This document shows positions 2,391-49,990 of a stretch of DNA of 64,000 nucleotides, piece by piece. Origin of the DNA: Methylosinus trichosporium OB3b. Lineage in GTDB: Bacteria > Pseudomonadota > Alphaproteobacteria > Rhizobiales > Beijerinckiaceae. The position numbers and the translations under genes were made by a program. Location of the stretch: the NCBI RefSeq assembly GCF_002752655.1, contig NZ_CP023737.1, positions 3,682,001 through 3,746,000 on the forward strand. The letters run 5' to 3'. Within the stretch, counting starts at the first letter, position 1; each line of letters opens with the position of its first letter. Below the pieces are notes generated by a model. It was given only the letters and a program-made list of their open reading frames with translations. It had not been told where the DNA came from and searched no databases.

Positions 2391-2617
2391 GAGGGTCGTC
2401 GATCGCGTCGGTGCGAGCGAGGATTGCTCGCTTTGCTCGCACCGGGAAAGCGGTCGCCGATCAGTCGCGTCGCGCGCGCTCTCGTGGGCGAAGTCCCTTT
2501 TTGTAAAGCAAATTCCGGCTGTCGTGCATTTCGCAGACCCTTGATCGGCGCGATGACATCGGTTAACACTACGTAGGTGTTCGCTCGGCGGTTCGCTGCT
2601 GCTTTTGGAGACGAGGC

Positions 2618-3265: not shown

Positions 3266-3642
3266 GGCCTGTTTGTGGTCCCGCGAGGAAGCGTGCTTAA
3301 GAGCTGGAGTCGCTGGCTTCATCTGCTCTTTTGATGAATTCCTTGTTTACGGGACATTTCGTGTCGAGGGAAGAAGTTCGTGCCTTTCGCGCTTCGCTCG
3401 CTGCTCGAATGAATCAGGCGAGAGATGCGGCGAGAATGTAACGGTTGCGATGAAATCGTCGCAGCTGAGGTCGTCTTCACGTCCGGGACGGCTTCAATCA
3501 CAAGCTAGACTTGCGCGCATGGTCGATACGGCTGTGCAATATAGATTTCTTGCCGAGATTGTCGGGCGAGCGCGTAGCCCCATGATATGTAGCTCGTTGA
3601 TAAGCTCTGGCACCTTTGAGTTTGGCTAGAGGAGATGATGCC
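3266..3642. other. AT-richer intergenic stretch, no gene seen
   Basis: About 377 bases between the methyltransferase and the beta-helix gene. The open frame crossing it lacks any recognisable protein pattern. It probably holds the promoter of the downstream gene, whose ribosome-binding site AGAGGAG is at 3628-3634. Nothing else is supported. Confidence 0.5.
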
Positions 3643-5403: not shown

Positions 5404-5419
5404 AACGCTCCCTCTAATA

Positions 5420-28118: not shown

Positions 28119-28852
28119 CCGACCGCCTCCGCGCGCGTTCCGCAGCGCTTCTGCCGGCTGTCCTCGACGATGCGGCCGTCGCGAAACCGCAGCAGCCGGT
28201 CGCCATAGGCGGCGATATCGGGTTCGTGCGTGATGACGATCAAGGTCAGCCCACGCGCGTTGAGGGAGGAGAGAAGCGTCATGATCTCATGCGAGTTCTG
28301 CGTGTCGAGCGCGCCGGTCGGCTCGTCGGCGATGACGATCCTCGGGTCGTTCACCAGGGCGCGGGCGATGGCGACGCGTTGCTGCTGGCCGCCGGAGAGC
28401 TGGCTCGGGCGGTGTGTCTGCCGCGCCTCGAGGCCGACCTCGGTCAGTCTCGTGCGCGCCCGCTCGTCCGCCTCGGCGTCGGAGGGCGCCTGCGCCGCAT
28501 AGACGAGCGGGAGCTTCACATTCTCCAACGCCGTCATTCGCGCCATCAGATTGAACTGCTGGAACACGAAGCCGATGCTCTCGTTCCGCAATCTGGCCAG
28601 CTCGTCGCTCGACATCGCCGAGACGGGCCGCCCGGCGATGCGAAGCATGCCGGAGGTCGGCGTGTCGAGCGCTCCCAGCAGATTGGCCAATGTCGATTTG
28701 CCCGACCCCGATGCGCCCATGATGGCGACGAATTCTCCCGCGGCGATCGAGAAGTCGACGCCGCGCAGAGCTTGCACTTTTTCTTTCCCGAGGTCGTAGG
28801 TCTTGGTCAGCGCGCAGGCCTCGATCATGGGCGCCGCAACCGATCCCGACAT
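28115..28852 (-). CDS. MacB/LolD-type ABC transporter ATPase
   Basis: 245 residues. Walker A GASGSGKST near residue 46, signature LSGGQQQR, Walker B IVIADEPTGALD and H-loop ITHEP are all intact. In MacB of E. coli ATPase and permease are one chain; here they are separate. It abuts the adaptor gene (the stop ends at 28853, this ATG begins at 28852) and overlaps the permease. Confidence 0.92.
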   Translation of the reverse strand: MSGSVAAPMIEACALTKTYDLGKEKVQALRGVDFSIAAGEFVAIMGASGSGKSTLANLLGALDTPTSGMLRIAGRPVSAMSSDELARLRNESIGFVFQQFNLMARMTALENVKLPLVYAAQAPSDAEADERARTRLTEVGLEARQTHRPSQLSGGQQQRVAIARALVNDPRIVIADEPTGALDTQNSHEIMTLLSSLNARGLTLIVITHEPDIAAYGDRLLRFRDGRIVEDSRQKRCGTRAEAVG

Positions 28853-33538: not shown

Positions 33539-33793
33539 ATGTGGCCTCCTTGTCGCCGTCCAATCGACGGCGAGGTCGTTTCGCGATGGGAGACGGGCCC
33601 GCCGCCCCTCGATTCCCACCCGATGCACAGAGCCCTAGGGGCTCCGCTTAACCCGAACATAACGTGAGCGCCGGCGGAATGGCTTTTCGTGGACTGTGGC
33701 GCTCGAGCAACAGTCGCGCTCGCGCCCGCTTGCGTCCGCCACAATCGGCGGGGATAATCGCCGCTCCCGATTGACGCGAGGCGGCGCTCAGAG

Positions 33794-34477
33794 ATGCGGG
33801 TTCTGATGGTGGAGGACGAGCCGGAGATGGCCAGGCTCGTCGAGAGAAAGCTCGCGCGCTCGGGCTTTGTGGCCGATCGCGTCGGCTCGCTCGACGAGAC
33901 GATCGAGGCGCTTCGGCAGCACAAATATTCGCTGGTTCTGCTCGACCGGCGCCTTCCGGACGGCGACGCGGTCTCCGTCCTGCCCGCCATTCGTCGTCTG
34001 CAGCCGTCGATCCGCATCGTGATGATGACCGCGCGCAACGCGGTCGACGATCGGATCGAGGGGCTCGACGCCGGCGCCGACGATTATGTGACCAAGCCCT
34101 TCGACGCCAATGAGCTGGTCGCGCGTGTGCGCGCCTGCCTGCGGCGGCTGGGCGGCGGCGAGGCGCCGCCGCCGATCGCGGTCGGCGGAATCGTTTTCAA
34201 CCCCGAAACGCGCGACGTCAGCGTCAATGGAGCGAATGTTCTATTTCACAAGCGCGAGCGCGCCCTGCTCGATATTCTGCTGCTGAACGCCGGGCGCGCG
34301 GTGCTGCGCGACCGGCTGCTCGCCGAAATCTACGGCTTCGCCGACGATGTGCAGGCCAATGCGCTCAGCATGCTGGTGTCGCGCCTGCGGCGCCGGTTGC
34401 TCGATCTCGACGCCGGCGTCGAGATCCACACCGCGCGCGACGTCGGCTATCTGCTGTCGGAGCGTAAGGAGAAATGA
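33794..34477 (+). CDS. OmpR-family response regulator
   Basis: 227 residues. Receiver domain with the acidic patch VEDEPE, phosphoacceptor D51 in LVLLDRRLPDG and the conserved lysine in VTKPFD near residue 101. C-terminal winged helix from ~130 (FHKRERALLDILLLNAGRAV; LRRRLLDLDAGVEIHTAR; GYLL). Overlaps the kinase by four bases (ATGA). Divergent from the TonB receptor, 255 bases apart, so it could control it. Confidence 0.92.
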   Translation: MRVLMVEDEPEMARLVERKLARSGFVADRVGSLDETIEALRQHKYSLVLLDRRLPDGDAVSVLPAIRRLQPSIRIVMMTARNAVDDRIEGLDAGADDYVTKPFDANELVARVRACLRRLGGGEAPPPIAVGGIVFNPETRDVSVNGANVLFHKRERALLDILLLNAGRAVLRDRLLAEIYGFADDVQANALSMLVSRLRRRLLDLDAGVEIHTARDVGYLLSERKEK

Positions 34478-35832
34478 GAAGCCCGTCGCTGCTCGCGCGG
34501 CTCGTGCTCGCCATCACTGTGGCCGAGCTGATCGTTCTGTTTCTCGTCTGGCCGAGCGTGACGATCCTCGTCACTTATCTGGGCCTCGCGGCGACCGAGT
34601 CCAACACTGTCTGGGCGGAGTTCCACGCGATCGAGGTGATCGAGAACGCGCTCAGAAAGGATTCGGACGGCTCCGTCCATATCGAGGCGACGCCCGCGCT
34701 GCGCGCCTATCAGGCCCGCAATCCGAATTTCCGTTTCGCGATCATCGACGAGCGCAGTGGCGCCGCGCTCGCCGGCTCGTCGGAGGAACTCGCGCGCGTC
34801 TTGCCGAGCGGCGGCGCGATCATTTCCATCAAAACCTATTTCCGGATTTCGAACGATCCGGACCCCGATGCGCGCGGCGTCTACATGCGGATGACGACGC
34901 CGAATTATTCGATGGTGATCCATGGCTACGCGCTGCATCCGGAGGATCTCATCGCCGTGATGCGGGCGCATACGGACATTGCGCAGCTCGTCCCCTTCTC
35001 GCCCTACGTCGTATTTGCGATCATCGGCTCCTGGCTGGCGACGCGCTTCGGATTGGCGCCGCTCTATGCGGCCAAGGAGCGGCTCGCGAAGATCGATCTT
35101 TCCTCCATCGACCAGCGCATCGACGCCGCGAAGGCTCCGAAGGAGATCGCGCCTCTGCTCGATGCGATCAACGCCGCGCTGGCGCGGCTCGAGGACGGCG
35201 CCAAGCGGCAGCGGCGCTTCACCGCCAACGCCGCGCATGAGCTGCTCACGCCGATCGCGATTCTGCGCGCGCGCCTCGACGCGCCGAACGAGCCGGGCTT
35301 TCTCTCCGATCTCGGCCGCGACATGCGGCGCATGCAGTCCGTCGTCGAGCAATTGCTGGTTCTCGCCCGCGGCGCGGAGCGTGGACGTCTCGCCGTCGCG
35401 GACCTCGATCTCGGCGCGCTCGCTCGCCATATAATCGCCGATTATCTGCCGTTGATCGTCGACAGCGGGCGGTCGATCGCTCTCGATCCGCCGGCGGCTC
35501 CGGTGATCGTTCGCGCCAACGGCCAAGCGCTCGAATGCATGCTGTCCAATCTCATCAACAATGCGCTGCGCGCCGAGCCTCTGGGCGGCACGATCGTGCT
35601 TCGCGTCGGCCCGGACGCTCGCCTCGAGGTCATCGACCATGGCGAAGGCGTCGCCGCGAGCGAGCAGGACCTCGTCTTCGAGCCCTTCTGGCGCCGGACC
35701 GAAACGACGCGCGGCGCCGGTCTCGGACTTTCGATCGTCAAAGAGCTCGCGGAAAAGCAGGGTGGCGGCGTCTATGTCACGCAGACGCCTGGAGGCGGCG
35801 CGACATTCGGCCTCGCTTTCCCGTCGCCGTGA
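34474..35832 (+). CDS. Sensor histidine kinase
   Basis: 452 residues. Two hydrophobic segments (residues ~9-35 and ~170-192) bracket a ~130-residue periplasmic sensor region. HisKA domain with H255 in AAHELLTPIAILRARL, then N-box LSNLINNALRAEP, D/G boxes and GAGLGLSIVKELAEK. Partner of the preceding regulator. The stimulus is unknown. Confidence 0.92.
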   Translation: MRSPSLLARLVLAITVAELIVLFLVWPSVTILVTYLGLAATESNTVWAEFHAIEVIENALRKDSDGSVHIEATPALRAYQARNPNFRFAIIDERSGAALAGSSEELARVLPSGGAIISIKTYFRISNDPDPDARGVYMRMTTPNYSMVIHGYALHPEDLIAVMRAHTDIAQLVPFSPYVVFAIIGSWLATRFGLAPLYAAKERLAKIDLSSIDQRIDAAKAPKEIAPLLDAINAALARLEDGAKRQRRFTANAAHELLTPIAILRARLDAPNEPGFLSDLGRDMRRMQSVVEQLLVLARGAERGRLAVADLDLGALARHIIADYLPLIVDSGRSIALDPPAAPVIVRANGQALECMLSNLINNALRAEPLGGTIVLRVGPDARLEVIDHGEGVAASEQDLVFEPFWRRTETTRGAGLGLSIVKELAEKQGGGVYVTQTPGGGATFGLAFPSP

Positions 35833-36095: not shown

Positions 36096-36308
36096 ATGCA
36101 GACCGGCGTCGTAAAATGGTTCAACTCGCAAAAAGGCTTCGGCTTCATCCAGCCGGATTCCGGCGGAGCGGATGTGTTCGTTCACATCAGCGCCGTGGAG
36201 CGAGCGGGGCTGCGCGGGCTCGCGGAAGGCCAGAAAATCTCCTACGAGACCGTCATCGACAAACGTAGCGGAAAATCTTCGGCCGACCAGCTGCAGGTCG
36301 AGGCGTAA
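36096..36308 (+). CDS. cspA: Cold-shock-domain protein
   Basis: 70 residues. RNP1 and RNP2 motifs KGFGFIQP and DVFVHIS, start [12 protein letters not shown]. Binds single-stranded RNA or DNA. AGGAAAA ribosome-binding site just upstream. The 263-base region before it (35833-36095) has no gene and is consistent with a long cold-shock leader. Confidence 0.93.
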
Positions 36309-36429
36309 CAGCTGCTCATAGCCTGTTCCCGTCGACTGCGGAGACGCCGCGACGGGAGCGAGGCCGGGGCGCGTCGTCATCGCTCATGGGTGGCTCATGG
36401 GCGTGACGATCACCAATGAGGAGAACGCC

Positions 36430-36765
36430 GTGGCGAAAGCCGAACTTGGCGCCAAGCGCCGATGCCTGAGCTGTGGCGTGGCGTTTTTCGATCTCAATCG
36501 CGATCCGATCGCCTGCCCGAAATGCGCGGCGATTTTTCAAGTCGTGGAGCTGCCTCGCTCCGCGCCGCGCGGCAAAGGGCCTTATCGCCCGATGCAGAGC
36601 GACGCGCGCGTCCCCGCCGAAGATGCCTCTAGCGACGAAACGGCGTCCGCGGAGACAGATGACGCGGAAACGGAAGCGGATGCGGATGACGCGGAGACCG
36701 ACGACAGCGTCCCTCCGCCGCTCGAGGAGGACGACGAAATCGAGGAGATCGACGACCTCATCTAG
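36430..36765 (+). CDS. TIGR02300-type zinc-ribbon protein with acidic tail
   Basis: 111 residues from GTG 36430, chosen because GAGGAG lies 8 bases upstream and family proteins begin AKxELGxKRxC; the ATG at 36397 is possible. Zinc ribbon CLSC...CPKC around the family's FFDLNRDPIACPKC, then a C-terminal half rich in D and E. Nucleic-acid-related role is suspected for the family but unproved. Its TAG is the first three bases of repeat copy C. Confidence 0.8.
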   Translation: MAKAELGAKRRCLSCGVAFFDLNRDPIACPKCAAIFQVVELPRSAPRGKGPYRPMQSDARVPAEDASSDETASAETDDAETEADADDAETDDSVPPPLEEDDEIEEIDDLI

Positions 36766-36877: not shown

Positions 36878-39800
36878 TCACAAGTCGATCACCTCGTAAT
36901 CACCGTTCGCAGGCGACGCGATTTCGCGGCCGGCGCGCGCGGAAAGTCCGGCATTCACGACCTCCGCCATTTCCGCGACCGTGCGCGCTTCGAAGAGCGA
37001 CCGCAGCGGAATCTGAATGTCGAAGGCCATCTGGATGCGGGATGCGATCTGCGTCATGAGCAGGGAGTGCCCTCCGAGCTCGAAGAAATTATCGCGGACG
37101 CCGACGGCGTCGACGCGCAGGACGTCGGCCCAGATTTTGGCGAGGGCGCGTTCGGCGTCATTGCGCGGGGCGACGAATTTGTCGGCGAGCTGCGCGGCGA
37201 TGTCGGGCTCCGGCAGGGCCTTGCGATCCACCTTGCCGTTGCGCGTCAGCGGCAGCGCGCCGAGGTTCACAAAGGCTGACGGAATCATATAATCGGGCAG
37301 GCTCTGGCGCAGATAGGCGCGCAGCTCCTCCGGCTCCGGCTCACGATCGCGGCCGACCACATAAGCGACGAGTCGATAGACGCCGCGCGACGCTTCGCGC
37401 GCGACCACAGCGGCCGCGCAGACGTCGACATGAGCGGAGAGACAGGCTTCGACTTCTCCCGGCTCGATGCGATGGCCGCGGATCTTCACCTGATGATCGA
37501 CGCGGCCGAGAAACTCGATGACGCCATCGGCGCGATAGCGGCCGAGATCGCCGGTGCGATAGAGGCGCGAGCCGGGCGGGCCGAAGGGATCGGGCGCGAA
37601 AGACGCCGCGGTGAGATCGGCGCGTCCGAGATAGCCACGCCCCACCTGCACGCCGGCGACGCAAATCTCGGCGTCGACGCCGATCGGCGCCGGATCGAGC
37701 CAGCGATCGAGAAGATAGATCTTCGTATTGTCGACGGGGCGTCCGATCGGAACGCTGAGCTCATCGCCCATCGGCGGCTCGATGATCGGATGATAGGTCA
37801 CATCGTCCGAACATTCGGCGGGGCCATAGGCGTTGAGCAGTCTCACCTGCGGATAGCGCTCCATGAATCGCCGGCACAGCTCCGGCGCGAAGGCTTCGCC
37901 GCAAGGCAGCAGCCAGCGCAATCCGTCGATCGACGCGTCGCTGTCGGCGAGCTCGAGCAGCGCGCGGATCATCGACGGCACCGCCTCCAATATGGTGACG
38001 CCGCGCGCGATCTCCGCGGCGAGACGCTGGGGATCGCGCGAGACGGCGTCGGGGAAGATCTCGACGCGCGCGCCGATGGTGAGCGCGGTGAGGAATTGCC
38101 AGACGGAGATGTCGAAACATTGCGATGCGGTCTGGGCGATCACATCGTTTTCGGTGAGGCCGAGCGCGGGAATCTTGGTGACGAGATTGTTGAACATTCC
38201 GCGATGCTCGACCATCGCGCCCTTGGGCTTTCCAGTGGAGCCGGAGGTGAAGATGACGAAGGCGAGATTGTCCGGCGCCTGGCGGCGCGGCGGATTGTCC
38301 GTGCGGCTCTCGCTCGCTTCGAGCGTTGCGAGATCGAGCAGGCGCGGCTGGTCGTCGCCGAGCGTCGCAGCGATGTCGCGGGCGCGGTTGCGCAGGGCAG
38401 CGCCGGCGGCGAGCAGAGCGACCTCGCTCTCGGCGAGCACTTGCGCGATGCGCCCGTCGGGATGCGCGGGATCGAGCGGCAGATAGGCGCCGCCGGCCTT
38501 GAAGATCGCCAGAATGGCGACGAGGAAGTCGACGCCGCGATCATCGAGCAGAGCGACGACGACATCGGGTCCGACTCCGCATCGGCTCAAGGCGTGCGCG
38601 AGCTTATTGGCGCGCATGTTCAGCTCGCCATAGCGAATGGAGACGTCGCCGCAGGCGACGGCGATGCGGTTCGGCGCCGTCGCCGCTTGCGCCTCGAAGC
38701 GCGCGACGAGATCGAGCGGCTCGCCATGATCGCGATCCGTCGCGTTCCAGGCGACCGTCAGCTCCTCCACCTCCGCTGGCGACAACAGCGCCAGCTCGCA
38801 GACGCGAGAATCGGGCGTTCGGATCATGCCCTCGAGCAATCGACGATAGTGATCGACCATTCGGTCGGCCGACTCCGCATCGAGCAGCGTCTGATTATAG
38901 GTCAGGCGCAGATGCAGCCTCTCATTGGGCATGACGCTGAGATTGAGCGGATAGTTCGAATGCGTCCGCGACGAATAGCTCAGCACTTCGAGCGGCAGCT
39001 CGCTGCGACGCAGCGATTCGTTCACCGGCACATTCTCATAGACGACGAAGCTGTCGAAGAGCTGCTCGCCGCGTTCGATCTCGCTCCATTTTTGAATGTC
39101 GGTGAGCGGCGCATATTCATATTGCCGCATCTCCGCCGTTTGCGACAGCAGACGGCGCAGCCAGTCGGCGATGCGCGCGGACGGCTCCACCGTGACCCGG
39201 CAGGGCAGAGTGTTGATGAACAGCCCCGCCATGTCCTCGACGCGGTCGAGCTCGCCCGGACGCCCGGCCACAGTGACGCCGAACACTATTTCGCTGCGGT
39301 TGAGATAATGGACCATCAGCAGCGCCCATGCGCCCTGCAGAAACGCGCTGGTCGTCAACCGATGCCTGCGGCAGGCCTCATGCAGCGCGGTCGTGTCCTC
39401 CTTGGAGAGCTCGGCCTGCGCATCGGTCACCTCGACCTCTCCCGGCGCGAGCGAGCGCCGGGGACGTTTCGCCGCTAGAAACGTCGGCGTCCTGAATCCT
39501 GCGAGCGCCTCGCGCCAATAGCTCTGCGCCGCGTCGAGGTCCTGGCGCTGCAGCCATGCGATATAGGCGCGATAGGGCGTGGCGACGCGCGTCGGCGCCG
39601 GCGCGCCCCTGAGCGCCGCCTCATAGTAGCGCAGAAAATCGGCGAGCAGCAGCGGCAGACACCAGGCGTCCAGCATGATGTGATGATGGCTGCGAATATA
39701 GGTCCAGCGATCCGGCCCGGTGCGGATGAGGCGCATGCGCAGGATCGGCGCGCGATCGAGAGTGAGGCCGGAGGTAAGCTCGTCATGGAGCATCGTCTGC

Positions 39801-42800
39801 AGCTGCAGTCCTCTCTCCTCCTCTTCGAGGTCGCGCCAGTCGAACAGCTCGCACGGCATTGGGACCGATTTCAGCGCGATCTGGTGAGGCCGCTCGTCCG
39901 TCGTCCAATAAAACGCCGTCCGTAGCATCGAATGCGAATCGACGACCTGGCGCCATGCATGCCGGAACGCGTCGACGTCGAGATCGGCCTTCAGCTCGAT
40001 CACGTCCTGCATCAGATAAATGCCGGAATGTGGGTCGAGCAGCGTGTGCAGCAGCAATCCCTGCTGCATCGGCGCCGCGGGATAGATATCCTCGACATTG
40101 GCGGGATCGGTGATCAGCCTGTCGAGATCGGCTTGTCCGAGCGTCGACAGCGGGAAGTCTGATGGCGTGAAGCTCGATGTCTCGACGTCGAGGCAATGAC
40201 GCACGAGCCCTTCCAGCTCGCGCTTCCATTCGGCGGCGAGAGCTTCGATGGTCGAGCGCGAATAGCGCTCTGCGCTGAAGCGCCAGCAGAGGCGCAGGCA
40301 GCCGTCGGTCACATCGCCGACAATCTCCCACTCATGGCTGAAGCTTCCTTCGAGCGAGAGATTTTCCCCGCTCGCGCCCGTCGCCGGGGCGAAGGGCGAA
40401 TCGGGCGAGAGGGCCTGATCGAGCCGGCCGAGATAGTTGAAGAGGATATCGCCGCGCGCGCCGCCTTCGTCGCGCAGATAGCGCCGAACGCCATGATAGA
40501 AGCCATTGGTCGGTATGCGCCGCAGCTGCTCCTTGACCGATTTGATCAGCTGTTCGGGATCGCTCTCGAGAACGTCCTGCAGCCGCACCGGATAGATGCT
40601 CGTGAACCAGCCGACCGTGCGGCTCACATCGACTCCGGCGATCACATCCTCGCGCCCATGTCCTTCGAGATCGATCGTGACCACGTTCGATCCCGTCCAG
40701 GCGCAGACAGCGCGCGCGAAGGATGCGAGCAGCAGCTCGTTGATGCGCGTGTGATAGGCCGCCGGCGCGTCTTGCAGTAGCGCCCGCGTCGTCTCGGCGT
40801 CGAGCGCGACCCGCGCTTCGGCGCCGTGCCGCCGCCGGCGCGACCCGCGAGGGTTCTCGACGTGAAGCGGCTGCGCCTCGATCTCGTCGAGCGCCGACCA
40901 ATAGTCGATGTCGCCGGGTGGAATCGCCGTCTGCGACAGGCGTCGCGCCCATGTCCGGTAGGAGGTCGTCTTCGCCGGGAGCGTGATCGCTCGCCCGCTC
41001 TTCGCCTGCCGGCAGGCGCTTTCCATATCCTCGAGCAGGATGCGCAGGCTGACTCCGTCCACGACGAGATGATGCGCGGCGAGGAGAATGCGTGGTTTTG
41101 CCGACGCGCCCAAATCGAACCAGACGATGCGAAACAGCGGCCCGGCCGCAAGATCGAAACGTCGCTGCCACTGCGTCGCCCGCGCGGCGATCGTCTCTTC
41201 ATGTGCTTCGGCAGGAACCGAGGACAGGTCTTCCACGTGAAAGACGTCGCCTTCCTCCGAGGGCGCGACGAAAGCCGACCAGCCTCTTTCTCGCTGGGTG
41301 AAGCGCATGCGCAGCGCGTCATGATGCTCGACGAGACGGCGCGTCGCCGTCTCGAAATCAGCCGGCGTCATTTCGTCGCGCAGCTCGAGCAGGACGGCGA
41401 GATTCCAATGATGGGGCTCGTCGAGCTCCTGCTCGAAGAACCAATGCTGGATGGGCGTCAGCGGCGCCTCGCCCGCGACGACGCCTTCTTCCACGATCGC
41501 CGACTGCGCGCGCGCTGCCTCGGCGAGCTGCGCCACCGTGGGAAGGTCGAAGATCTGCTTGGGCATCAGCGTCAGCCCGGCGCGGCGCGCCCGGCTGACG
41601 ATCTGAATGCTGAGAATGGAATCGCCTCCGAGCTCGAAGAAATTATCGTGGACGCCGACGGCGTCGACGCGCAGGACGTCGGCCCAGATTTTAGCGAGGG
41701 CGCGTTCGGCGTCATTGCGCGGGGCGACGAATTTGTCGGCGAGCTGCGCGGCGATGTCGGGCTCCGGCAGGGCCTTGCGATCGACCTTGCCGTTGCGCGT
41801 CAGCGGCAGCGCGCCGAGGTTCACAAAGGCTGACGGAATCATATAATCGGGCAGGCTCTGACGCAGATAGGCGCGCAGCTCCTCCGGCTCCGGCTCACGA
41901 TCGCGGCCGACCACATAAGCGACGAGTCGATAGACGCCGCGCGACGCTTCGCGCGCGACCACAGCGGCCGCGCAGACGTCGACATGAGCGGAGAGGCAGG
42001 CCTCGACTTCTCCCGGCTCGATGCGATGGCCGCGGATCTTCACTTGATGATCGACGCGGCCGAGAAATTCGATGACGCCATCGGCGCGATAGCGGCCGAG
42101 ATCGCCGGTGCGATAGAGGCGCGAGCCGGGCGGGCCGAAGGGATCGGGCGCGAAGGACGCCGCGGTGAGATCGGCGCGTCCGAGATAGCCGCGCCCCACC
42201 TGCACGCCGGCGACGCAAATCTCGGCGTCGACGCCGATCGGCGCCGGATCGAGCCAGCGATCGAGAAGATAGATCTTCGTATTGTCGACCGGGCGTCCGA
42301 TCGGAACGCTGAGCTCATCGCCAATCGGCGGCTCGATGATCGGATGATAGGTCACATCGTCCGAACATTCGGCGGGGCCATAGGCGTTGAGCAGTCTCAC
42401 CTGCGGATAGCGCTCCATGAATCGCCGGCACAGCTCCGGCGCGAAGGCCTCGCCGCAAGGCAGCAGCCAGCGCAATCCGTCGATCGACGCGTCGCTGTCG
42501 GCGAGCTCGAGCAGCGCGCGGATCATCGACGGCACCGCCTCCAATATGGTGACGCCGCGCGCGATGTCCGCGGCGAGACGCTGGGGATCGCGCGAGACGG
42601 CGTCGGGGAAGATCTCGACGCGCGCGCCGATGGTGAGCGCGGTGAGGAATTGCCAGACGGAGATGTCGAAACATTGCGATGCGGTCTGGGCGATCACATC
42701 ATTTTCGGTGAGGGCGAGCGCGGGAATCTTGGTGACGAGATTGTTGAACATTCCGCGATGCTCGACCATCGCGCCCTTGGGCTTTCCAGTGGAACCGGAG

Positions 42801-45800
42801 GTGAAGATGACGAAGGCGAGATTGTCCGGCGCGTGACGACGCGGCGGATTGTCCGTGCGGCTCTCGCTCGCTTCGAGCGTTGCGAGATCGAGCAGGCGCG
42901 GCTGGTCGTCGCCGAGCGTCGCAGCGATGTCGTGGGCGCGGTTGCGCAGGGCGGCGCCGGCGGCGAGCAGAGCGACCTCGCTCTCGGCGAGCACTTGCGC
43001 GATGCGCCCGTCTGGATGCGCGGGATCGAGCGGCAGATAGGCGCCGCCGGCCTTGAAGATCGCCAGAATGGCGACGAGGAAGTCGACGCCGCGATCATCG
43101 AGCAGAGCGACGACGACATCGGGTCCGACGCCGCATTGGATCAAGGCGTGGGCGAGGCGATTGGCGCGCGCATTCAGCTCGCCATAGCGAATGGAGCCGT
43201 CGCCGCAGGCGGCGGCGATGCGGTTCGGCGCCGTCGCCGCTTGCGCCTCGAAGCGCGCGACGAGATCGAGCGGCTCGCCATGATCGCGATCCGTCGCGTT
43301 CCAGGCGACCGTCAGCTCCTCCACCTCCGCTGGCGACAACAGCGCCAGCTCGCAGAGGCGAGAATCGCAATTGACGATCAGCTGCTCCAGCGAGCGCCGG
43401 AACGCCTCTGCGATCCGCTGCACCGTCTCGGCGTCGAAGCGCTCGCGATCATAAGTGAGGCGCAGGCCGAGGGTCTCGCCGGGAATGGCGACGAAGGTGA
43501 GCGGATAATTGGTGTGAACGCGCAGCTGCAGCAGATCGATGTCGAGCACGTCCTTCTCCCCTCGCACGGATGGGTCGAGCGGCGCGTTCTCGAAGGTCAG
43601 CAGATGCTGGAAGAGCGGCGCGTCGGAGCGCGAGATGGCGCTCCAGCGCTGGATGTTCGTCTGGGGAACGAACTCATATTGGCGCATCTCGAGATTGTCC
43701 GCGAGAATCTCGCGGAGCCAATCGATGACAGGCTTGCGTCGGTCGATCCTGACGCGCAAGGGCAGGCTGTTGATGAATAGCCCGAGCGTCGCGTCGGCGC
43801 CGTCGAGATCGATCGGCCGGCCGGACGCGGTGACGCCGAAGACGACATCGTCGACCCCGCCGGCGCGTCCGAGAGTGAGCGCGAGCGCTCCTTGCACGAA
43901 AGTGTTCAGCGTCAGCCGGCGTTGCTGAACGAGCGCTCTGAGCCGCTCGTACATCTCGTTGGAAAGGTCGACGACGATATCCTCGACGAAGGAGACGGCG
44001 TCGCGTGTCGACGGTTTCGCCCCGACGAGCGGCGTCGGCTCGACGAATCCGTCGAGATGGGCGCGCCAGAACTGCTCGGCTGTCCGCTCGCTCTGTTCCG
44101 CGATCCATTCGATATAGCGCCAGAACTGCGGCGCCGGCGCAAATTCCGTGGCCTCTCCCTTTCGCACAGCGGCATAGTGCCGGCGAACGTCGAGGATGAG
44201 CAAAGACGTGCACCAGTCGTCCAATATGATGTGATGGAAGCTGCGCACGCAGATGTGACGATCATCTGCGAGGCGAAAGATGCGGATGCGCATGAGCGGC
44301 GCCTGCGCGAGGTCGAAGCCCGCTTCCCTTTCGGCGGCGAGCGCGCGATCGATCGCGTTCGTCTGCTCCTGTTCCGTGGCTCCGCTCAGATCCGTGACCT
44401 CGAAGGGAAGCGCCGCGGCGCGATGCACGATTTGATGCGGCCGTCCTTCGCTCGACCAGTCGAAGGAGGTGCGTAGAATGTCGTGCCGGTCGATAACGCG
44501 CCGCCACGCTTCTAGGAAGGCGTCGATATCGAGCGCGCCTTTGATCTCGTAGCGGTCCTGCATCAGATAGAGGCCGGTCCCCTGCTGCGAGAGCGCATGG
44601 AACAACATGCCTTCCTGCATGGGCGTGAGCGGATATATATCCTGAGCGTCACCATGCACAGCCTTCAATCGCTCGACATCGGTTGCGCCGAGCTGGGCGA
44701 GAGAGAAGGGCGTCGAACGCCGCTCGCGAGTCGGCTCCGTCCCGTCTTTCGCGACGCGCAGGCGCGGAGCGAGAGACGCTGCGGTCGGATATTGGAAGAA
44801 ATCGCGCGGCGCCGCCTCATATCCTCGCAGTCTCAGCGCGCTCGCCGCCTGAATTGCGCGGATCGAATCGCCGCCGAGATCGAAGAAGTCGTCGTCGGCG
44901 CCGACGCGCGCGAGGCCGAGCGTCTCGGCGAACACGGCGCAGATCGCTGCTTCCGTCTCGGTCGTCGGCGCGACATAGCGTTCGCTAAGCAAAGCGTCGA
45001 CGTCCGGCGCGGGAAGCGCCTTGCGATCGACCTTGCCATTGTCGAGCCGCGGCAGGCGCTGCAGCGCCACGACGAAATGCGGCGTCATATAGTGCGGGGC
45101 CTCGCTTCGAAACGCCTCTTTCACCGCCCGCGGCTCGAGCTCGCCGACGACATAAGCGACGAGCCGCTTGTCTCCGGTTGCGTCGGCTCGCGCCACGACC
45201 GCCGCCTCGCGGACGCCGGGCAGTCGCGACAGCACATCCTCCACTTCGGAGATTTCGATGCGATGACCGCGAATCTTCACCTGCTGGTCGGAGCGGCCCA
45301 TGAATTCGAGCTTTCCATCCGCGCGATATCTCGCGCGATCCCCGGTGCGATAGAGACGCTCGCCGAAGCCGAACGGATCGGGTGTGAATTTCGTCGCGGT
45401 CAGCTCCGCGCCGCCGCGATAGCCGCGCGCGACTCCTGCTCCGCCCACGCAGAGCTCGCCGGCGATTCCGACTGGCGCGAGTTCGCCATTTTCATCGAGA
45501 ACATAAGCGCGAGAGCCGGGAATCGCGCGGCCGATGCTGACGCCCGATGAGAGATCGTCTTCCGTGCTCAGCTGCTCGGCGGCGCACCAGACCGAGCATT
45601 CCGTCGGACCATATTCATTGATCAGCGCTGCTTCTGGAAGCGTGTGAAAATGGCGCTCGACCACATCGGCGCCGCAGGCCTCGCCGGCGACGATGCAGCA
45701 TTTCAGCATCGTCCGCTCTCCGCGCGAGAGCTCTCCGAGCAGCTCGCGGTGGAAGGAGGGGAGACAGAGGAAATGGGTGATGTCGCGGCTCGCGATGATC

Positions 45801-48800
45801 TCCTTCAACGCGACGGGATCGCGGCGCGTCGTCTCGGCGACGAGATGGAGCCGTCCGCCGCGCGCCAGCGTCCAGAATAATCCCGCAAAGGAGCTGTCGA
45901 AGGAAAGCGAGGAGAGAAGCAGAAAGTCGTCGACCGTCTGCGGATAGAAGGCGAAGCGCGCGAGGAGGGACGCGACCGCATTGCGATGCGTCGCCATCAC
46001 GCCTTTGGCGCCTCCCGTGGAGCCGGAGGTGTAGACGATATAAGCGAGGTTGTCGGGATGGGCACTGGAGACCACGGCGTCATTCGAAACATCCGCGAGC
46101 TCGTCGGCGTCGACGAGAATCTTAGGAATCACGCAGTCGAGGCGTGGCAGGCTTTGCGCGGAGATCAAGGCGCGCGCGCCGGAATCTGCGAGCATGTAAC
46201 GCAGCCGCTCCGACGGATAGGCCGGGTCCAGCGGAACGAAGGCGCCGCCCGCCACGAGCACGCCGAGCACAGACGCGACATAATCCAGTCCGGGATCGAG
46301 GAGCACGCCGACGGGCGTCTCCGGCCCTATTCCCGCTCGTTGCAGCAGGCGCGCGATTTGATTGGCGCGCAGACGCAATTCGCCATAGGTCAGCGATCCA
46401 TCCTCGGCGACGACGGCGATATCGTCGCTGCGCGCGTCCGCGCCGATGAGGTCGTGCAGCAATGTTTCGCGCGGCGCGCTCAGCTCATCGCCTGTCGATC
46501 GGACGAGAATCGTTCGCCGCTCGGCTTCGTCGAGCATGTGGGCGTCGCCGATGCGACAGTCGGGCGATCGCAGCAGAGCGTCGAGGAGCCTCGCATAGCG
46601 ATCGGCCATCGCCGCGACGGACGAGCGCGACAGCACCTGCTCGCTGAATTGAAAGGAAAGGGCGAGACGACCCTCGTGCTCCGCCGCCATCACCTTGAGG
46701 TCGAACATTTCGACGCGGTTGCTCAGCGCCACGGGCTTCGCCGCCACGCCGAGCAGATCGATCGCGCCGAGCTCCTCGCCCAGCGACAGAGCCGCCGCGG
46801 CGCTGGGCGCGCCGCCCTGCGCTTGCTGCAGAACGAACCAGGTCTGATAGATCGGCCATTGATCGTCGACGCGGACGGGATTGAGGCGCTCGACGACGAG
46901 CTGGAACGGAAAGCGCTGATGGACGATCGCGCCCTTCACTTGTTCATTCACTCGGCGCAGCAGATCGATGAAGCGATCCTGAGGCGCGATCTTCGATCTT
47001 ATGGCGATGGGATTGACGCAATTGCCGACGGTTGCGGCGGCGGCGTGGTCGAGACGCCCGCTCGCGGCGCCGCCGACGATGATGTCGTCCTGTCCGCAGG
47101 AGCGTCGCAGCAGCGCGAAATAGACGGTGAGCAGCGCCGAATAGAGGCTGACGCCCTCGCGTCTGGCGAGGTCCTTCAGTCGACGCGTCGCGCTGTCGTC
47201 GATCATGAGAAGCGTCGATCCGCCGCGATAGTCGCGGCGGCCTGCGCGGCGAAAATCCTGCGGCAGATCGAGAACCGGAAGCGGCCCGGCGAGCTGCTCG
47301 CGCCAATAGGTCCAATCGCGCTCCGCCGCGGCGGAGGCGAGATAATCGGCTTCAGCGGCGACGAAGGCGCCATAGCGCGGCTCGGCGGCCGTCTGCGCCT
47401 CGCCGCGATAGCAGCGGTCGAGCTCGTCGAGCAGCAGGACCAGCGACCATTGATCGACGGCGATGTGATGCGCGACGAACAAGAGCGCATGGCGGTCCTC
47501 GGTGACACGATAGAGCACGACCCGCAGCGGCGGCTCGTTCTCTATGTCGAATGACCGGCGCGCCTCCTTCGACATTGCGTCGCGCAGCTCCGCATCGCTC
47601 CAATGCGCGGCTTTTTCGACGCGCAGGACCAGCGGCGCGTCGTTCAGAGCGACGCGCTCGGCCATGTCTTCGCCGGCGCATGGCCGAAACACGGTTCGCA
47701 GCTGCTCGTGCCGCTCCACCAGGCAGTGAATTGCGCGCTGCAGACGCTCGACGTCGATCGGCGCCTCGAAGCCGATCGCAAGATGCAGATTATAGGCTTC
47801 GCCCGCGCCTTCGAGACGATGGATCGTCCACATGGAGCGCTGCGTGAAGGAGAGGGCCGAATCCCTACGCTCATGCGGCGCAGCGCCCAGTGAGGGCGGC
47901 GTGCTCCCATCGACGATCCGCAGCATGGCGTCGGCGGCCGTCGCCATGCTCACATTCGAGAGCAGCAGCTCGATCGGCGCGTCGATGTCGAGAGCGGCGT
48001 CGATGCGATGCTTCAGCTCGACAGCGCGAAGCGAGCTCAGCCCGACGTCGACGAAGGAGGCGGCGTCGCTCACCTCGCGCTCGGACATGTCGAGAATCTC
48101 GGCGGCGCTCGTCGACAGGAACCGTCGCAGCAGCGCAGCGCGTTGCTCGGCGTCGACATAGCTCATCGCTTGCCTCAGGAAGGCGCTCGGGCGCGGCGCC
48201 GCTTCGTGTCGCTTCAACGTCGCTTCGGCCTCGGGCCGCGCGCGGCTCCATTGCGCGATCACGGTCAATTCATCGGCGAGGAGCAGCCGGCGGCATTCGG
48301 AGCGGCGCAGCTTTCCACTCGATGTCTTGGGAATGGAGCCTGGGCGCGCCAGCACGACATGCGCCGGCTCGACGCCGAGATCTTCGGCGACGCAGCGGCG
48401 AATGAGAGTGAGGATGTCGGCGTGAGCGCTCTCGCTCGCCGCGGCGGCCGCGCGATCGGGCTCGGCGATCACGACGAGCCGCTCCTCGTCGGCCTGTGTG
48501 AGCGAGAGAGCGGCGACGGCGCCCGGACGCAGATCGGCGACGCGCTGCTCGATCGCCGCCTCGACATCCTGCGCGTGAATATTGCGTCCGGCGACGATGA
48601 TCATGTCTTTCAATCGTCCAGCGATGAAAAGCTCGCCATCCTCGAAGAAGCCGAGATCGCCGGTCCGCAGATAAGGCCCTCGATCTTCGCCGGCGATGCG
48701 CGCCCCGAACACGCGCGCGCTATCCTCTGGCCGTTCCCAATAGCCGCGTGCGACTCCCGGCCCGGCGACCCAGATCTCTCCGACGGCGGCGGGACCGCAG

Positions 48801-49990
48801 CGCGTCGAGCGCTCCGGATCGACGATCGCGACCTCATAGCCCGGCCAGGCGTGGCCGCATCCGACGAAGGAGAGCGAGCGTCCGGTCGCGGCGCGCAGCA
48901 TGCGCCCGGCGTCGAGCGCGGCCCTGTCGATCTCGATGATCGGAATCGGACGCTCGCCCGTCGGCGCCGTCACGACGAGAGTGGCTTCGGCGAGTCCGTA
49001 GCAGGCGGTGAAGGCGTCGCGGCGAAAGCCGCAATCGGCGAATGCGCGTGCGAAGCCGTCGAGCGTCTTGGCGCGCACCGGCTCGGCGCCGCTGAAGGCG
49101 ACACGCCATTCACTCAGGTCGAGGTCGCGCTTGTCCTCCTCCTTCATCTTGCGCACGCAGAGATCATACGCGAAGTTCGGTCCGCCGCTGGTTCGCGCGC
49201 CATAGCGAGAGATCGCCTGCAGCCAGCGCGCCGGCTTTTCCAGAAACGCCATTGGCGACATGAGATAGGCGGTGGCGCCGACATACATGGGCTGCAGAAT
49301 ATTTCCGATGAGACCCATGTCGTGATAGAGCGGCAGCCATCCCACGAGATCGGAATCGGGGCCGTGGCCGAAGCTCTCGGCGATCAGCGCCTGATTGCTC
49401 ATGAGATTGCCATGGGAGATCATCACGCCGCGCGGCTCGGCGGTGGAGCCGGACGTATATTGCAGGAAGGCGAGGTCGCCCGCGGTCGGAGCATAGGGGC
49501 GCCAGTCGGCGCTCGCGGCGACGTCGATCTGGTCGGTGGCGATCCAGCCGGCCGCGGTCGTCGGAATGTCCTCGCTCGTCTCGAAGCGAAGCCTCATAGC
49601 CTCGGTCGTCAGAATGATCGAAGGTTGCGAATCGAGGACGATCGATCGCAGGCGGTCGAAGTGACGGCCCGATGGAGGATAGGCGGGAACGGCGACGACG
49701 CCGGCGTAGAGGCAGCCGAAGAAGGCTTCGATATAGGGAAGTCCCGGCGGATACAAAAGCAGCGCGCGCGCGCCTTTTGCTCCGGCGGAGGCGAGACGCG
49801 CGGCGATGGCGCGCGCACGAAGATCGAGGTCGGCGAAGCTCGTCCGCGCGCCTTCGCGCTCGCCGTCGTCGAGAAAGAGATAGGCGAGCTTCGTCGATTG
49901 ATCGGCGGCGCGCATGCGCAGAAGATTCACCAGATTGTCGCTGTCGGGGCGCACGCTCGCGCTCGTGAATTTCGTCGATGACAAGGTCAT
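36878..49990 (-). CDS. Lipopeptide nonribosomal peptide synthetase, 4,370 residues
   Basis: Starts at ATG 49990 with GAGG 8 bases upstream. Domains by motif, with residues: FAAL ~25-600 (YTSGSTAEPRG at 178, GRLKDMIIVAGRN), ACP (S653 in GLSSLRAVEL), C1 (HHIAVDQW 841), A1 (YTSGSTGGAKG 1320), PCP1 (S1709, GGDSI), C2 (HHIILDDW 1919), A2 (FTSGSTGKPKG 2396), PCP2 (S2791, GGDSI), E (HHLVVDG 2973, EGHGRE), C3 (HHHIMLDAW 3435), A3 (FTSGSTGKPKG 3914), PCP3 (S4309, GGHSL), then 61 residues and stop. All C and E histidines are intact. Predicted product: fatty acyl-X-D-Y-L-Y, with Y the same residue twice. No thioesterase or reductase; no MbtH-like or phosphopantetheinyl transferase gene in the window. 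Divergent from fabD. Confidence 0.93.
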   Translation of the reverse strand: MTLSSTKFTSASVRPDSDNLVNLLRMRAADQSTKLAYLFLDDGEREGARTSFADLDLRARAIAARLASAGAKGARALLLYPPGLPYIEAFFGCLYAGVVAVPAYPPSGRHFDRLRSIVLDSQPSIILTTEAMRLRFETSEDIPTTAAGWIATDQIDVAASADWRPYAPTAGDLAFLQYTSGSTAEPRGVMISHGNLMSNQALIAESFGHGPDSDLVGWLPLYHDMGLIGNILQPMYVGATAYLMSPMAFLEKPARWLQAISRYGARTSGGPNFAYDLCVRKMKEEDKRDLDLSEWRVAFSGAEPVRAKTLDGFARAFADCGFRRDAFTACYGLAEATLVVTAPTGERPIPIIEIDRAALDAGRMLRAATGRSLSFVGCGHAWPGYEVAIVDPERSTRCGPAAVGEIWVAGPGVARGYWERPEDSARVFGARIAGEDRGPYLRTGDLGFFEDGELFIAGRLKDMIIVAGRNIHAQDVEAAIEQRVADLRPGAVAALSLTQADEERLVVIAEPDRAAAAASESAHADILTLIRRCVAEDLGVEPAHVVLARPGSIPKTSSGKLRRSECRRLLLADELTVIAQWSRARPEAEATLKRHEAAPRPSAFLRQAMSYVDAEQRAALLRRFLSTSAAEILDMSEREVSDAASFVDVGLSSLRAVELKHRIDAALDIDAPIELLLSNVSMATAADAMLRIVDGSTPPSLGAAPHERRDSALSFTQRSMWTIHRLEGAGEAYNLHLAIGFEAPIDVERLQRAIHCLVERHEQLRTVFRPCAGEDMAERVALNDAPLVLRVEKAAHWSDAELRDAMSKEARRSFDIENEPPLRVVLYRVTEDRHALLFVAHHIAVDQWSLVLLLDELDRCYRGEAQTAAEPRYGAFVAAEADYLASAAAERDWTYWREQLAGPLPVLDLPQDFRRAGRRDYRGGSTLLMIDDSATRRLKDLARREGVSLYSALLTVYFALLRRSCGQDDIIVGGAASGRLDHAAAATVGNCVNPIAIRSKIAPQDRFIDLLRRVNEQVKGAIVHQRFPFQLVVERLNPVRVDDQWPIYQTWFVLQQAQGGAPSAAAALSLGEELGAIDLLGVAAKPVALSNRVEMFDLKVMAAEHEGRLALSFQFSEQVLSRSSVAAMADRYARLLDALLRSPDCRIGDAHMLDEAERRTILVRSTGDELSAPRETLLHDLIGADARSDDIAVVAEDGSLTYGELRLRANQIARLLQRAGIGPETPVGVLLDPGLDYVASVLGVLVAGGAFVPLDPAYPSERLRYMLADSGARALISAQSLPRLDCVIPKILVDADELADVSNDAVVSSAHPDNLAYIVYTSGSTGGAKGVMATHRNAVASLLARFAFYPQTVDDFLLLSSLSFDSSFAGLFWTLARGGRLHLVAETTRRDPVALKEIIASRDITHFLCLPSFHRELLGELSRGERTMLKCCIVAGEACGADVVERHFHTLPEAALINEYGPTECSVWCAAEQLSTEDDLSSGVSIGRAIPGSRAYVLDENGELAPVGIAGELCVGGAGVARGYRGGAELTATKFTPDPFGFGERLYRTGDRARYRADGKLEFMGRSDQQVKIRGHRIEISEVEDVLSRLPGVREAAVVARADATGDKRLVAYVVGELEPRAVKEAFRSEAPHYMTPHFVVALQRLPRLDNGKVDRKALPAPDVDALLSERYVAPTTETEAAICAVFAETLGLARVGADDDFFDLGGDSIRAIQAASALRLRGYEAAPRDFFQYPTAASLAPRLRVAKDGTEPTRERRSTPFSLAQLGATDVERLKAVHGDAQDIYPLTPMQEGMLFHALSQQGTGLYLMQDRYEIKGALDIDAFLEAWRRVIDRHDILRTSFDWSSEGRPHQIVHRAAALPFEVTDLSGATEQEQTNAIDRALAAEREAGFDLAQAPLMRIRIFRLADDRHICVRSFHHIILDDWCTSLLILDVRRHYAAVRKGEATEFAPAPQFWRYIEWIAEQSERTAEQFWRAHLDGFVEPTPLVGAKPSTRDAVSFVEDIVVDLSNEMYERLRALVQQRRLTLNTFVQGALALTLGRAGGVDDVVFGVTASGRPIDLDGADATLGLFINSLPLRVRIDRRKPVIDWLREILADNLEMRQYEFVPQTNIQRWSAISRSDAPLFQHLLTFENAPLDPSVRGEKDVLDIDLLQLRVHTNYPLTFVAIPGETLGLRLTYDRERFDAETVQRIAEAFRRSLEQLIVNCDSRLCELALLSPAEVEELTVAWNATDRDHGEPLDLVARFEAQAATAPNRIAAACGDGSIRYGELNARANRLAHALIQCGVGPDVVVALLDDRGVDFLVAILAIFKAGGAYLPLDPAHPDGRIAQVLAESEVALLAAGAALRNRAHDIAATLGDDQPRLLDLATLEASESRTDNPPRRHAPDNLAFVIFTSGSTGKPKGAMVEHRGMFNNLVTKIPALALTENDVIAQTASQCFDISVWQFLTALTIGARVEIFPDAVSRDPQRLAADIARGVTILEAVPSMIRALLELADSDASIDGLRWLLPCGEAFAPELCRRFMERYPQVRLLNAYGPAECSDDVTYHPIIEPPIGDELSVPIGRPVDNTKIYLLDRWLDPAPIGVDAEICVAGVQVGRGYLGRADLTAASFAPDPFGPPGSRLYRTGDLGRYRADGVIEFLGRVDHQVKIRGHRIEPGEVEACLSAHVDVCAAAVVAREASRGVYRLVAYVVGRDREPEPEELRAYLRQSLPDYMIPSAFVNLGALPLTRNGKVDRKALPEPDIAAQLADKFVAPRNDAERALAKIWADVLRVDAVGVHDNFFELGGDSILSIQIVSRARRAGLTLMPKQIFDLPTVAQLAEAARAQSAIVEEGVVAGEAPLTPIQHWFFEQELDEPHHWNLAVLLELRDEMTPADFETATRRLVEHHDALRMRFTQRERGWSAFVAPSEEGDVFHVEDLSSVPAEAHEETIAARATQWQRRFDLAAGPLFRIVWFDLGASAKPRILLAAHHLVVDGVSLRILLEDMESACRQAKSGRAITLPAKTTSYRTWARRLSQTAIPPGDIDYWSALDEIEAQPLHVENPRGSRRRRHGAEARVALDAETTRALLQDAPAAYHTRINELLLASFARAVCAWTGSNVVTIDLEGHGREDVIAGVDVSRTVGWFTSIYPVRLQDVLESDPEQLIKSVKEQLRRIPTNGFYHGVRRYLRDEGGARGDILFNYLGRLDQALSPDSPFAPATGASGENLSLEGSFSHEWEIVGDVTDGCLRLCWRFSAERYSRSTIEALAAEWKRELEGLVRHCLDVETSSFTPSDFPLSTLGQADLDRLITDPANVEDIYPAAPMQQGLLLHTLLDPHSGIYLMQDVIELKADLDVDAFRHAWRQVVDSHSMLRTAFYWTTDERPHQIALKSVPMPCELFDWRDLEEEERGLQLQTMLHDELTSGLTLDRAPILRMRLIRTGPDRWTYIRSHHHIMLDAWCLPLLLADFLRYYEAALRGAPAPTRVATPYRAYIAWLQRQDLDAAQSYWREALAGFRTPTFLAAKRPRRSLAPGEVEVTDAQAELSKEDTTALHEACRRHRLTTSAFLQGAWALLMVHYLNRSEIVFGVTVAGRPGELDRVEDMAGLFINTLPCRVTVEPSARIADWLRRLLSQTAEMRQYEYAPLTDIQKWSEIERGEQLFDSFVVYENVPVNESLRRSELPLEVLSYSSRTHSNYPLNLSVMPNERLHLRLTYNQTLLDAESADRMVDHYRRLLEGMIRTPDSRVCELALLSPAEVEELTVAWNATDRDHGEPLDLVARFEAQAATAPNRIAVACGDVSIRYGELNMRANKLAHALSRCGVGPDVVVALLDDRGVDFLVAILAIFKAGGAYLPLDPAHPDGRIAQVLAESEVALLAAGAALRNRARDIAATLGDDQPRLLDLATLEASESRTDNPPRRQAPDNLAFVIFTSGSTGKPKGAMVEHRGMFNNLVTKIPALGLTENDVIAQTASQCFDISVWQFLTALTIGARVEIFPDAVSRDPQRLAAEIARGVTILEAVPSMIRALLELADSDASIDGLRWLLPCGEAFAPELCRRFMERYPQVRLLNAYGPAECSDDVTYHPIIEPPMGDELSVPIGRPVDNTKIYLLDRWLDPAPIGVDAEICVAGVQVGRGYLGRADLTAASFAPDPFGPPGSRLYRTGDLGRYRADGVIEFLGRVDHQVKIRGHRIEPGEVEACLSAHVDVCAAAVVAREASRGVYRLVAYVVGRDREPEPEELRAYLRQSLPDYMIPSAFVNLGALPLTRNGKVDRKALPEPDIAAQLADKFVAPRNDAERALAKIWADVLRVDAVGVRDNFFELGGHSLLMTQIASRIQMAFDIQIPLRSLFEARTVAEMAEVVNAGLSARAGREIASPANGDYEVIDL
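37071..38813 (-). repeat. NRPS internal direct repeat, copy 2 (module 3 A-PCP)
   Basis: Aligns base for base, without an indel, with 41625-43367 (constant offset 4,554). Covers the A3 domain from the linker CELALLSPAEVEEL through to the start of PCP3. Outside these limits the two modules diverge sharply. Confidence 0.85.
41625..43367 (-). repeat. NRPS internal direct repeat, copy 1 (module 2 A-PCP)
   Basis: Partner of 37071-38813. By eye only about a dozen amino-acid differences separate the copies over 580 residues (for example AACGDG/VACGDV, IQCGVG/SRCGVG, AADIAR/AAEIAR, VHDNFF/VRDNFF). Confidence 0.85.

Follow-up and report, generated by a model that had tools for sequence, protein, structure and literature searches.

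The stretch of DNA analysed here (the window) comprises 64,000 nucleotides of the chromosome of Methylosinus trichosporium OB3b (G000:C1:3682001-3746000). It carries a gene for a non-ribosomal peptide synthetase (NRPS), named NRPS1 in this work, and its likely role in a siderophore-type pathway is the subject of this report. The OB3b genome measures 5.18 Mb in four contigs, among which C1 is the chromosome (4.51 Mb) and C4 is the plasmid pOB3b3. NRPS1 is a single minus-strand open reading frame (ORF) at window positions 36878..49990. It encodes 4370 amino acids from an ATG start and has no internal stops. The database record of the protein has 4358 amino acids and fits a GTG start 12 codons later, as deduced from its length. 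The GC content is 64-67% over 36-50 kb of the window and 51-73% across 2-kb steps of the whole window.

Pfam finds four AMP-binding, four Condensation, four PP-binding and three AMP-binding_C domains in NRPS1. Pfam and a phmmer domain map together give the order FAAL-T-C-A-T-C-A-T-E-C-A-T, where FAAL is a fatty acyl-AMP ligase, T a carrier, C a condensation, A an adenylation and E an epimerisation domain. The references of the map were mostly cut from NRPS1 itself and only restate boundaries, so independent support comes from Pfam and from PDB matches. This assignment is not due to chance because the E-values of the Pfam, NCBIfam and PDB matches are 0. The four best PDB chains all belong to PvdL and the best NCBIfam model is PRK05691; with the ORF, Pfam and map evidence, these matches mark NRPS1 as a PvdL-like synthetase. 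The protein opens with the FAAL (residues 19-575; 48266..49936, minus strand as are all its domains), recognised by NCBIfam and PDB FAAL matches, whose best relatives among the compared proteins are the FAALs of sister NRPS1s (64-66% identity). The acyl carrier T0 with the motif GLSS follows (residues 621-690; 47921..48130; Pfam, map and motif). Module 1 comprises the acyl-accepting C1 with HHIAVD (residues 711-1150; 46541..47860; map, motif and tree), A1 (residues 1181-1660; 45011..46450) and T1 (residues 1671-1745; 44756..44980; map and motif). Module 2 comprises C2 (residues 1783-2228; 43307..44644; map, motif and tree), A2 (residues 2247-2745; 41756..43252), T2 (residues 2759-2828; 41507..41716; map and motif) and the E domain (residues 2839-3293; 40112..41476), which is supported by PDB, the map and the motifs HHLVVDG, EGHGRE and FNYLGR. 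Module 3 comprises C3 (residues 3301-3750; 38741..40090; map and tree), A3 (residues 3765-4263; 37202..38698) and T3 with LGGHS (residues 4277-4347; 36950..37162; Pfam, map and motif). All three C domains as well as the E domain carry HHxxxD, GKVDR (the lysine motif of A domains) occurs three times, and the carrier serine motifs (LGGDS, LGGDS, LGGHS and GLSS) are all intact. The first-pass annotation of this DNA had described a FAAL-primed NRPS with this domain order and intact motifs, and Pfam, the map and the motif check bear it out. Neither Pfam nor the map detects a release domain, be it a thioesterase (TE) or a reductase, and after T3 the protein ends in a docking-type tail, PANGDYEVIDL (36881..36913), which resembles a short linear motif and was recognised by comparison with the tails of sister proteins.

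The aligned substrate codes point to the residues that NRPS1 would incorporate. A1 has the code DSALIAEVWK and is predicted to select His; this code has been assigned to His that can be beta-hydroxylated (PMC12283262). A2 and A3 both have the code DIWELCADDK and are predicted to select 2,4-diaminobutyrate (Dab). In the last A domain of PvdL nine of the ten code positions are alignable and read DIWELTADD, eight of which match A2 and A3. Residue 2 would be D-configured because module 2 ends in an E domain, and the predicted residues are His, D-Dab and Dab. A2 and A3 are 97.8% identical in DNA as well as in protein, and in module 2 the identity stays high over roughly residues 2200-2800. A2 of OB3b is 78% identical to A2 of its counterpart in Methylosinus sp. 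C49, where A2 and A3 are 100% identical in protein. This homogenisation is best read, from the pattern of identity, as gene conversion of the substrate domain in the OB3b and C49 lineages alike. Nonsynonymous (dN) and synonymous (dS) divergence between NRPS1 and the C49 counterpart are 0.31 and 0.94, respectively, and the resulting dN/dS of about 0.33 therefore indicates purifying selection.

Counterparts of NRPS1 are widespread in the genus. The N-terminal 1197 amino acids were searched in 10 Methylosinus genomes, OB3b included, and strong counterparts were found in eight of the nine sisters (48-57% identity). G007, the smallest genome, has none by this search. A separate contig scan with the same query gave 19 loci, three of them with near-full coverage at 37-39% identity and none from Methylosinus, though near records may be omitted there. 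The best full-length homologue is that of C49 (G005), at 61% identity. The surroundings were read in seven of the eight sisters (G003, in 460 contigs, was left out). At all seven loci a further NRPS gene follows the NRPS1 counterpart and an MbtH gene lies just upstream. A Cupin_8 oxygenase gene stands between MbtH and NRPS1 at six (not in G008), and an aminotransferase gene adjoins MbtH at four and lies about 16 kb from NRPS1 in G002. Downstream, an ATP-binding cassette (ABC) transporter (47-54% identity) occurs at four loci and a glycosyltransferase with a close acylase (54-60%) at two; in G001 and G008 the NRPS run reaches the contig end and the region beyond is not visible. In C49, an aminotransferase, MbtH, cupin, NRPS1, NRPS2, glycosyltransferase, ABC transporter and acylase form a same-strand run of eight genes (2255376-2228762), and the cluster also has a receptor and a sigma-type regulator. 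The first residue of the sister variants is Ser-, Asp- or His-coded, and the second is Dab-coded in the window gene and in all seven sister NRPS1s read. A CmlA-type diiron hydroxylase gene follows the His-coded NRPS at four of the seven loci (L073:4126-5751 in G002, L074:7278-8921 in G001, L082:574-2229 in G008 and L081:1887-3485 in G009). The Cupin_8 oxygenases, such as those at L071:7662-8552 (G005) and G000:C1:1292348-1293250, are of the JmjC type, and in G006 one occurs without a His-coded module among the codes read. The siderophore beta-hydroxylases analysed in one study were aligned to the TauD Pfam family (PMC12971057).

The tail of NRPS1 leads to a candidate partner. Its counterparts end in DYEDIEL (C49 and Methylosinus sp. 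Ce-a6, G004) or HYEDVEL (G006), and the next subunit after each begins with a TubC-like domain. Docking in which a short C-terminal motif binds a beta-hairpin domain at the N-terminus of the next protein has been established for junctions between peptidyl carrier and C domains (PMC9113145). Among 20 successive gene pairs, for which the sister TubC-like domains were found by similarity to the first 55 residues of the OB3b synthetase NRPS2 and in which contig ends or stretches of N truncate some ORFs, a tailed NRPS precedes an NRPS2-like N-terminus in six of six cases, against none of the 14 other pairs (nine sister, five plasmid). The tail pattern occurs in seven of 206 picked ORFs, namely those six and the window gene. 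A genome-wide Condensation search of OB3b gave 17 stretches, four in NRPS1, nine on plasmid C4, three in NRPS2 and one on C2. NRPS2 lies at C1:2839550-2850373, about 870 kb from NRPS1, and encodes 3607 amino acids with the order C-A-T-C-A-T-C-A-T-TE by the phmmer map and Pfam, the latter finding three C, three A, three T, a TE and a TubC_N domain. The start of NRPS2 is the one TubC_N (PF18563) match over the cut-off of 26 in the whole OB3b genome (54.6 bits in the genome scan and 47.8 bits in a repeat). Its first C domain forms a clade with precisely the three C domains found behind tailed NRPS1s (51-55% identity), with support of 100/100 among 49 C and E domains and 100/99 among 40 rows after plasmid and E rows were dropped. 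NRPS2 is accordingly the predicted docking partner of NRPS1. Its A domains are predicted to select Thr, Ser and Thr, and the code DVWHISLIDK is one that we take to be a Ser code. DFWNIGMVHK is listed among the Thr codes (PMC12283262). Within NRPS2, C domains two and three hardly differ from each other (branches 0.075 and 0), and the same holds for the plasmid C domains C4_32216_C1 and C4_28893_C1; judged from this near-identity, both cases are recent module duplication. The sister NRPS2 (G005:C1:2234372-2239435; G004:C38:5274-10349) ends in C-T with neither an A domain nor a TE.

Homologues of the helper genes of the C49 run are present in OB3b with the expected Pfam families, in open frames and with no internal stop. 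A class III aminotransferase is encoded at C1:674690-676147 (78% identity to C49). An acylase of the penicillin amidase family to which PvdQ belongs (PF01804; C1:927466-929898; 54%), a PvdE-like ABC transporter (PF00005; C1:929835-931649; 53%) and a UDP-glycosyltransferase (C1:931765-933117; 53%) form one block. MbtH lies inside the frame C1:1293312-1293827 (68%), and the Cupin_8 oxygenase adjoins it (C1:1292348-1293250; 61%). With NRPS1 and NRPS2 the genes occupy five places on C1, at about 0.67, 0.93, 1.29, 2.84 and 3.72 Mb. The plasmid paralogues are more distant, at 60% (aminotransferase), 38% (ABC transporter), 27% (acylase) and 54% (MbtH) identity to the chromosomal proteins. The possibility that the acylase is a pseudogene was rejected, since the one TGA noted in it is simply where an open 810-residue frame normally ends. 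Among five OB3b receptors compared, the one adjoining NRPS2 (C1:2832735-2835575) is the one similar in sequence to a sister-cluster receptor (65% identity to that of G002). A DDE_Tnp_1 transposase gene lies at G000:C1:935578-936783 (L126), about 2.4 kb from the acylase-ABC-glycosyltransferase block, and is a possible hint at how genes were scattered.

We consider it likely, on the strength of these comparisons, that NRPS1 serves as first subunit in a split metallophore assembly line of the pyoverdine type, with genes dispersed around the OB3b chromosome. The sequence itself shows the domain order, the lack of a release domain, the tail and that the other genes exist with open frames, and the mechanism is built on these features. 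FAAL would charge T0 with a fatty acid, and the three modules of NRPS1 would add His, Dab (epimerised to D-Dab) and Dab. The DYEVIDL tail would then bind the N-terminal TubC_N (beta-hairpin) domain of NRPS2, which would add Thr, Ser and Thr and free an acyl-hexapeptide by its TE. The class III aminotransferase may supply Dab, MbtH may assist adenylation, and the Cupin_8 oxygenase may hydroxylate one residue. The PvdE-like transporter would export the peptide, the PvdQ-like acylase would take off the acyl tail, and the UDP-glycosyltransferase may glycosylate the peptide. The acyl tail is probably removed later in the pathway; an acylase of the PvdQ family among these genes points to a temporary acyl group, and what is finally made may be something other than a lipopeptide. 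The fuller version of this proposal is put forward more tentatively, at a little short of even chances: that OB3b has a complete working NRPS metallophore pathway whose eight genes are spread over five sites within about 3 Mb of one chromosome, joined only by docking specificity and shared regulation, that its product is a deacylated, possibly glycosylated (beta-OH-)His/Dab peptide made with a Cupin_8 (JmjC-type) and not a TauD-type hydroxylase, and that sister species make variants of it.

Several observations weigh against assigning NRPS1 to such a line. The PRK05691 score of 4026.6 bits is just under the curated cut-off of 4090. The tail pattern was defined only after the tails had been inspected, and a plasmid subunit ending in MSEFEV is a near miss with no TubC_N partner. 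The first C domain of NRPS2 sits on a long end branch (0.54-0.56), and the tree tool warns that its placement is unsure. The partner in C49 and Ce-a6 is C-A-T-C-T without a TE, whereas NRPS2 of OB3b has three C-A-T modules and a TE. Only the docking part and the first C domain correspond to that partner, and the remainder is similar to other NRPSs; since the later modules and the TE look like those of other lines in the genus, the second half of NRPS2 seems to have been exchanged. Docking and co-production are predicted, as are the substrate codes, and these include only one classical chelating residue (beta-OH-His). The window's own TonB receptor (31283-33628), considered as the receptor of the pathway, was rejected as an orthologue, its identity to the receptor of the C49 cluster being 27%. 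A weak test for regulatory motifs common to the upstream regions of the five places did not establish one: the top 12-mers in common were GC-rich and occurred in five of five regions, against at most four of five in three simple shuffles that did not preserve dinucleotides, and nothing resembling a Fur, ICE or PvdS site was prominent there. Finally, the text of PMC12811070 that was read does not tie the chromosomal siderophore cluster that it reports to a specific locus.

The first-pass annotation took NRPS1 for a single-gene system making an N-acylated tripeptide; under such a model the peptide would be freed by hydrolysis or by a stand-alone TE in trans. The frame of NRPS1 is intact, the window yielded neither partner nor helper genes, and the plasmid does carry a stand-alone thioesterase gene (C4:53073-53975). 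We nevertheless regard a lone NRPS1 as unlikely and find the single-gene tripeptide unsupported, given that the protein has no TE or reductase, that its docking-type tail is of the kind found at subunit junctions and that the genome holds a single matching candidate partner, the TE-bearing NRPS2 elsewhere on the chromosome; PvdL, of the same architecture, likewise passes its chain on (PMC9569983). It is similarly improbable that NRPS1 is the remnant of a broken cluster, intact in sequence and no longer part of a working pathway. The contiguous gene set of C49 is dispersed in OB3b, the upstream regions gave no established promoter motif, and the transposase gene lies close to one block, all of which would suit a remnant. 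A relic would be expected to decay unless the loss were very recent; NRPS1 has instead a 13 kb frame without a stop, intact core motifs and a dN/dS of about 0.33 against C49, and the homologues of the C49 run are all open frames.

A third explanation, that NRPS1 feeds the crochelin-like line of plasmid pOB3b3 or that NRPS2 belongs to an unrelated siderophore such as a catecholate, is very improbable: the plasmid line likewise has a Dab-like code (DIWELTADDK), a Dab transaminase, an acylase and export genes, but it also has its own FAAL and terminal TE, and no TubC_N match over the cut-off lies on the plasmid. The sole isochorismatase-family match in OB3b lies in a 224-residue frame, short for an EntB with its carrier domain, and no catechol genes are present among those NRPS2 neighbours tested. 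Methylocystabactin, a triscatecholate siderophore, has been reported for many methane-oxidizing alphaproteobacteria (PMC13251462). The catecholate reading of NRPS2 was rejected as no EntB-like isochorismatase was found in OB3b. A plasmid NRPS C domain is split over two frames at G000:C4:24261-25594 (L017), where NZ_CP119872 has one coding sequence of 10.5 kb, and that record in turn shows the counterpart of C4:38842-42156 as three pieces. Each plasmid assembly may have its own sequencing errors. A 12 kb piece of C4 aligns along its full length, at 100.0% identity, with plasmid pOB3b_03 of Methylosinus trichosporium OB3b, which identifies the organism; this match falls into two pieces and spans 13.06 kb of the record. 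A large polyketide synthase set with multiple ketosynthase domains and one weak Condensation match lies at G000:C2:27485-59000.

The neighbourhood of NRPS1 in the window holds none of the partner NRPS or tailoring genes next to it, and the nearest other chromosomal Condensation stretch is that of NRPS2. On one side Pfam identifies fabD- (50391), fabG-, fabF- and mltG-type genes, and between NRPS1 and the fabD-type gene there is neither MbtH nor a cupin. Past the NRPS1 stop come a FYDLN_acid gene (36397-36765), a cold-shock protein gene (36096-36308) and, 1-6 kb off, genes for a histidine kinase, a response regulator and a TonB receptor, with no NRPS by Pfam. The region had been called otherwise housekeeping, a description that fits the fab and mltG side and fails for the signalling and receptor genes on the other. 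Six helper-gene queries against the window gave one match, an ABC transporter at 28169-28804 (33% identity over about a third of its length). The fabD loci compared in seven relatives retain fabD followed by the outer-membrane gene. The upstream neighbours at four of these seven loci were compared and have no counterpart beside NRPS1 except generic low-identity matches, which therefore places a synteny breakpoint there. The two flanks were searched separately for repeats; one 26-nt tandem pair lies inside the FYDLN frame of the left flank, and the right flank has none. At 31283-35832 the TonB-dependent receptor gene (minus strand) adjoins the response regulator and histidine kinase genes (plus strand), close to NRPS1. 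The FYDLN_acid gene adjoins the cold-shock gene and has a second OB3b copy elsewhere (45% identical); close counterparts (69-78%) occur in five of the nine sister genomes and lie about 13 kb from NRPS1 in G001 and G002. At 2001-6000 the GC content falls to 51-56% amid mostly 65-70%, and the two ORFs there (595 and 175 residues) have no Pfam match.

OB3b is a reference organism for copper acquisition by methanobactin and for methane oxidation. By antiSMASH two putative siderophore clusters have been reported from it, a chromosomal one and one carried by pOB3b3; copper and carbon source regulate both, and siderophore secretion has been detected by the chrome-azurol (CAS) assay, with the product unknown (PMC12811070, 2026). 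A literature search found no paper naming the NRPS1 gene or its product, nor a split or dispersed pathway in OB3b; supplements were not covered, and absence from print is not shown by it. If the proposed line is real, one OB3b metallophore pathway is hard to detect by region-based genome mining because its genes are dispersed, and the docking pair is what points to two synthetases belonging together. The sister genomes would offer a natural series from clustered to dispersed for how a clustered pathway breaks up without loss.

Among known systems the closest likeness is to PvdL. NRPS1 has the same FAAL-T-C-A-T-C-A-T-E-C-A-T order, which we presume for the full PvdL (PDB chains cover E-C-A-T), the same lack of a TE and Dab at module 3. 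In pyoverdine biosynthesis PvdL supplies the opening part, a fatty acid followed by Glu, D-Tyr and Dab, which other synthetases then lengthen. PvdE exports the acylated peptide and PvdQ takes off its acyl group; PvdH for Dab and an MbtH protein also belong to the pathway (PMC9569983). NRPS1 likewise appears to be a member of a multi-subunit line with counterparts of PvdH, MbtH, the PvdE exporter and the PvdQ acylase. Unlike PvdL, it is predicted to use His and D-Dab in place of Glu and D-Tyr, which would give no precursor of the pyoverdine chromophore, and its predicted partner has a beta-hairpin docking domain. The helper genes are dispersed, and the OB3b set adds a UDP-glycosyltransferase and a Cupin_8 oxygenase. 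The C49 NRPS (4367 residues) has the same domain order, 61% identity over 99% of its length, the same kind of tail and the same A2/A3 code. It differs in a Ser-type code at module 1, where OB3b has His, in its C-A-T(His)-C-T partner and in its contiguous genes. The crochelin-like cluster of pOB3b3 is also FAAL-initiated and has a Dab-like module, a Dab transaminase, an acylase and a cyclic-peptide ABC exporter (PMC12811070). In contrast to the NRPS1 line it is one cluster with a polyketide synthase, an ornithine/lysine hydroxylase and PvdF, and its FAAL-T-C part is only 35% identical to NRPS1. The corrugatin-type lipopeptide siderophores are acyl peptides of the metallophore kind as well. Histicorrugatin and ornicorrugatin belong to this family, and the residue order predicted for the OB3b peptide differs from theirs. 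Beta-OH-His is a known chelator (PMC12971057). The first-pass annotation knew of no matching characterised product, and in the literature searched there is indeed none, yet in architecture NRPS1 matches PvdL, even if it must make a different product. On its predicted codes (His, Dab, Dab and not Glu, D-Tyr, Dab), NRPS1 would act in the manner of PvdL but is not a pyoverdine PvdL.

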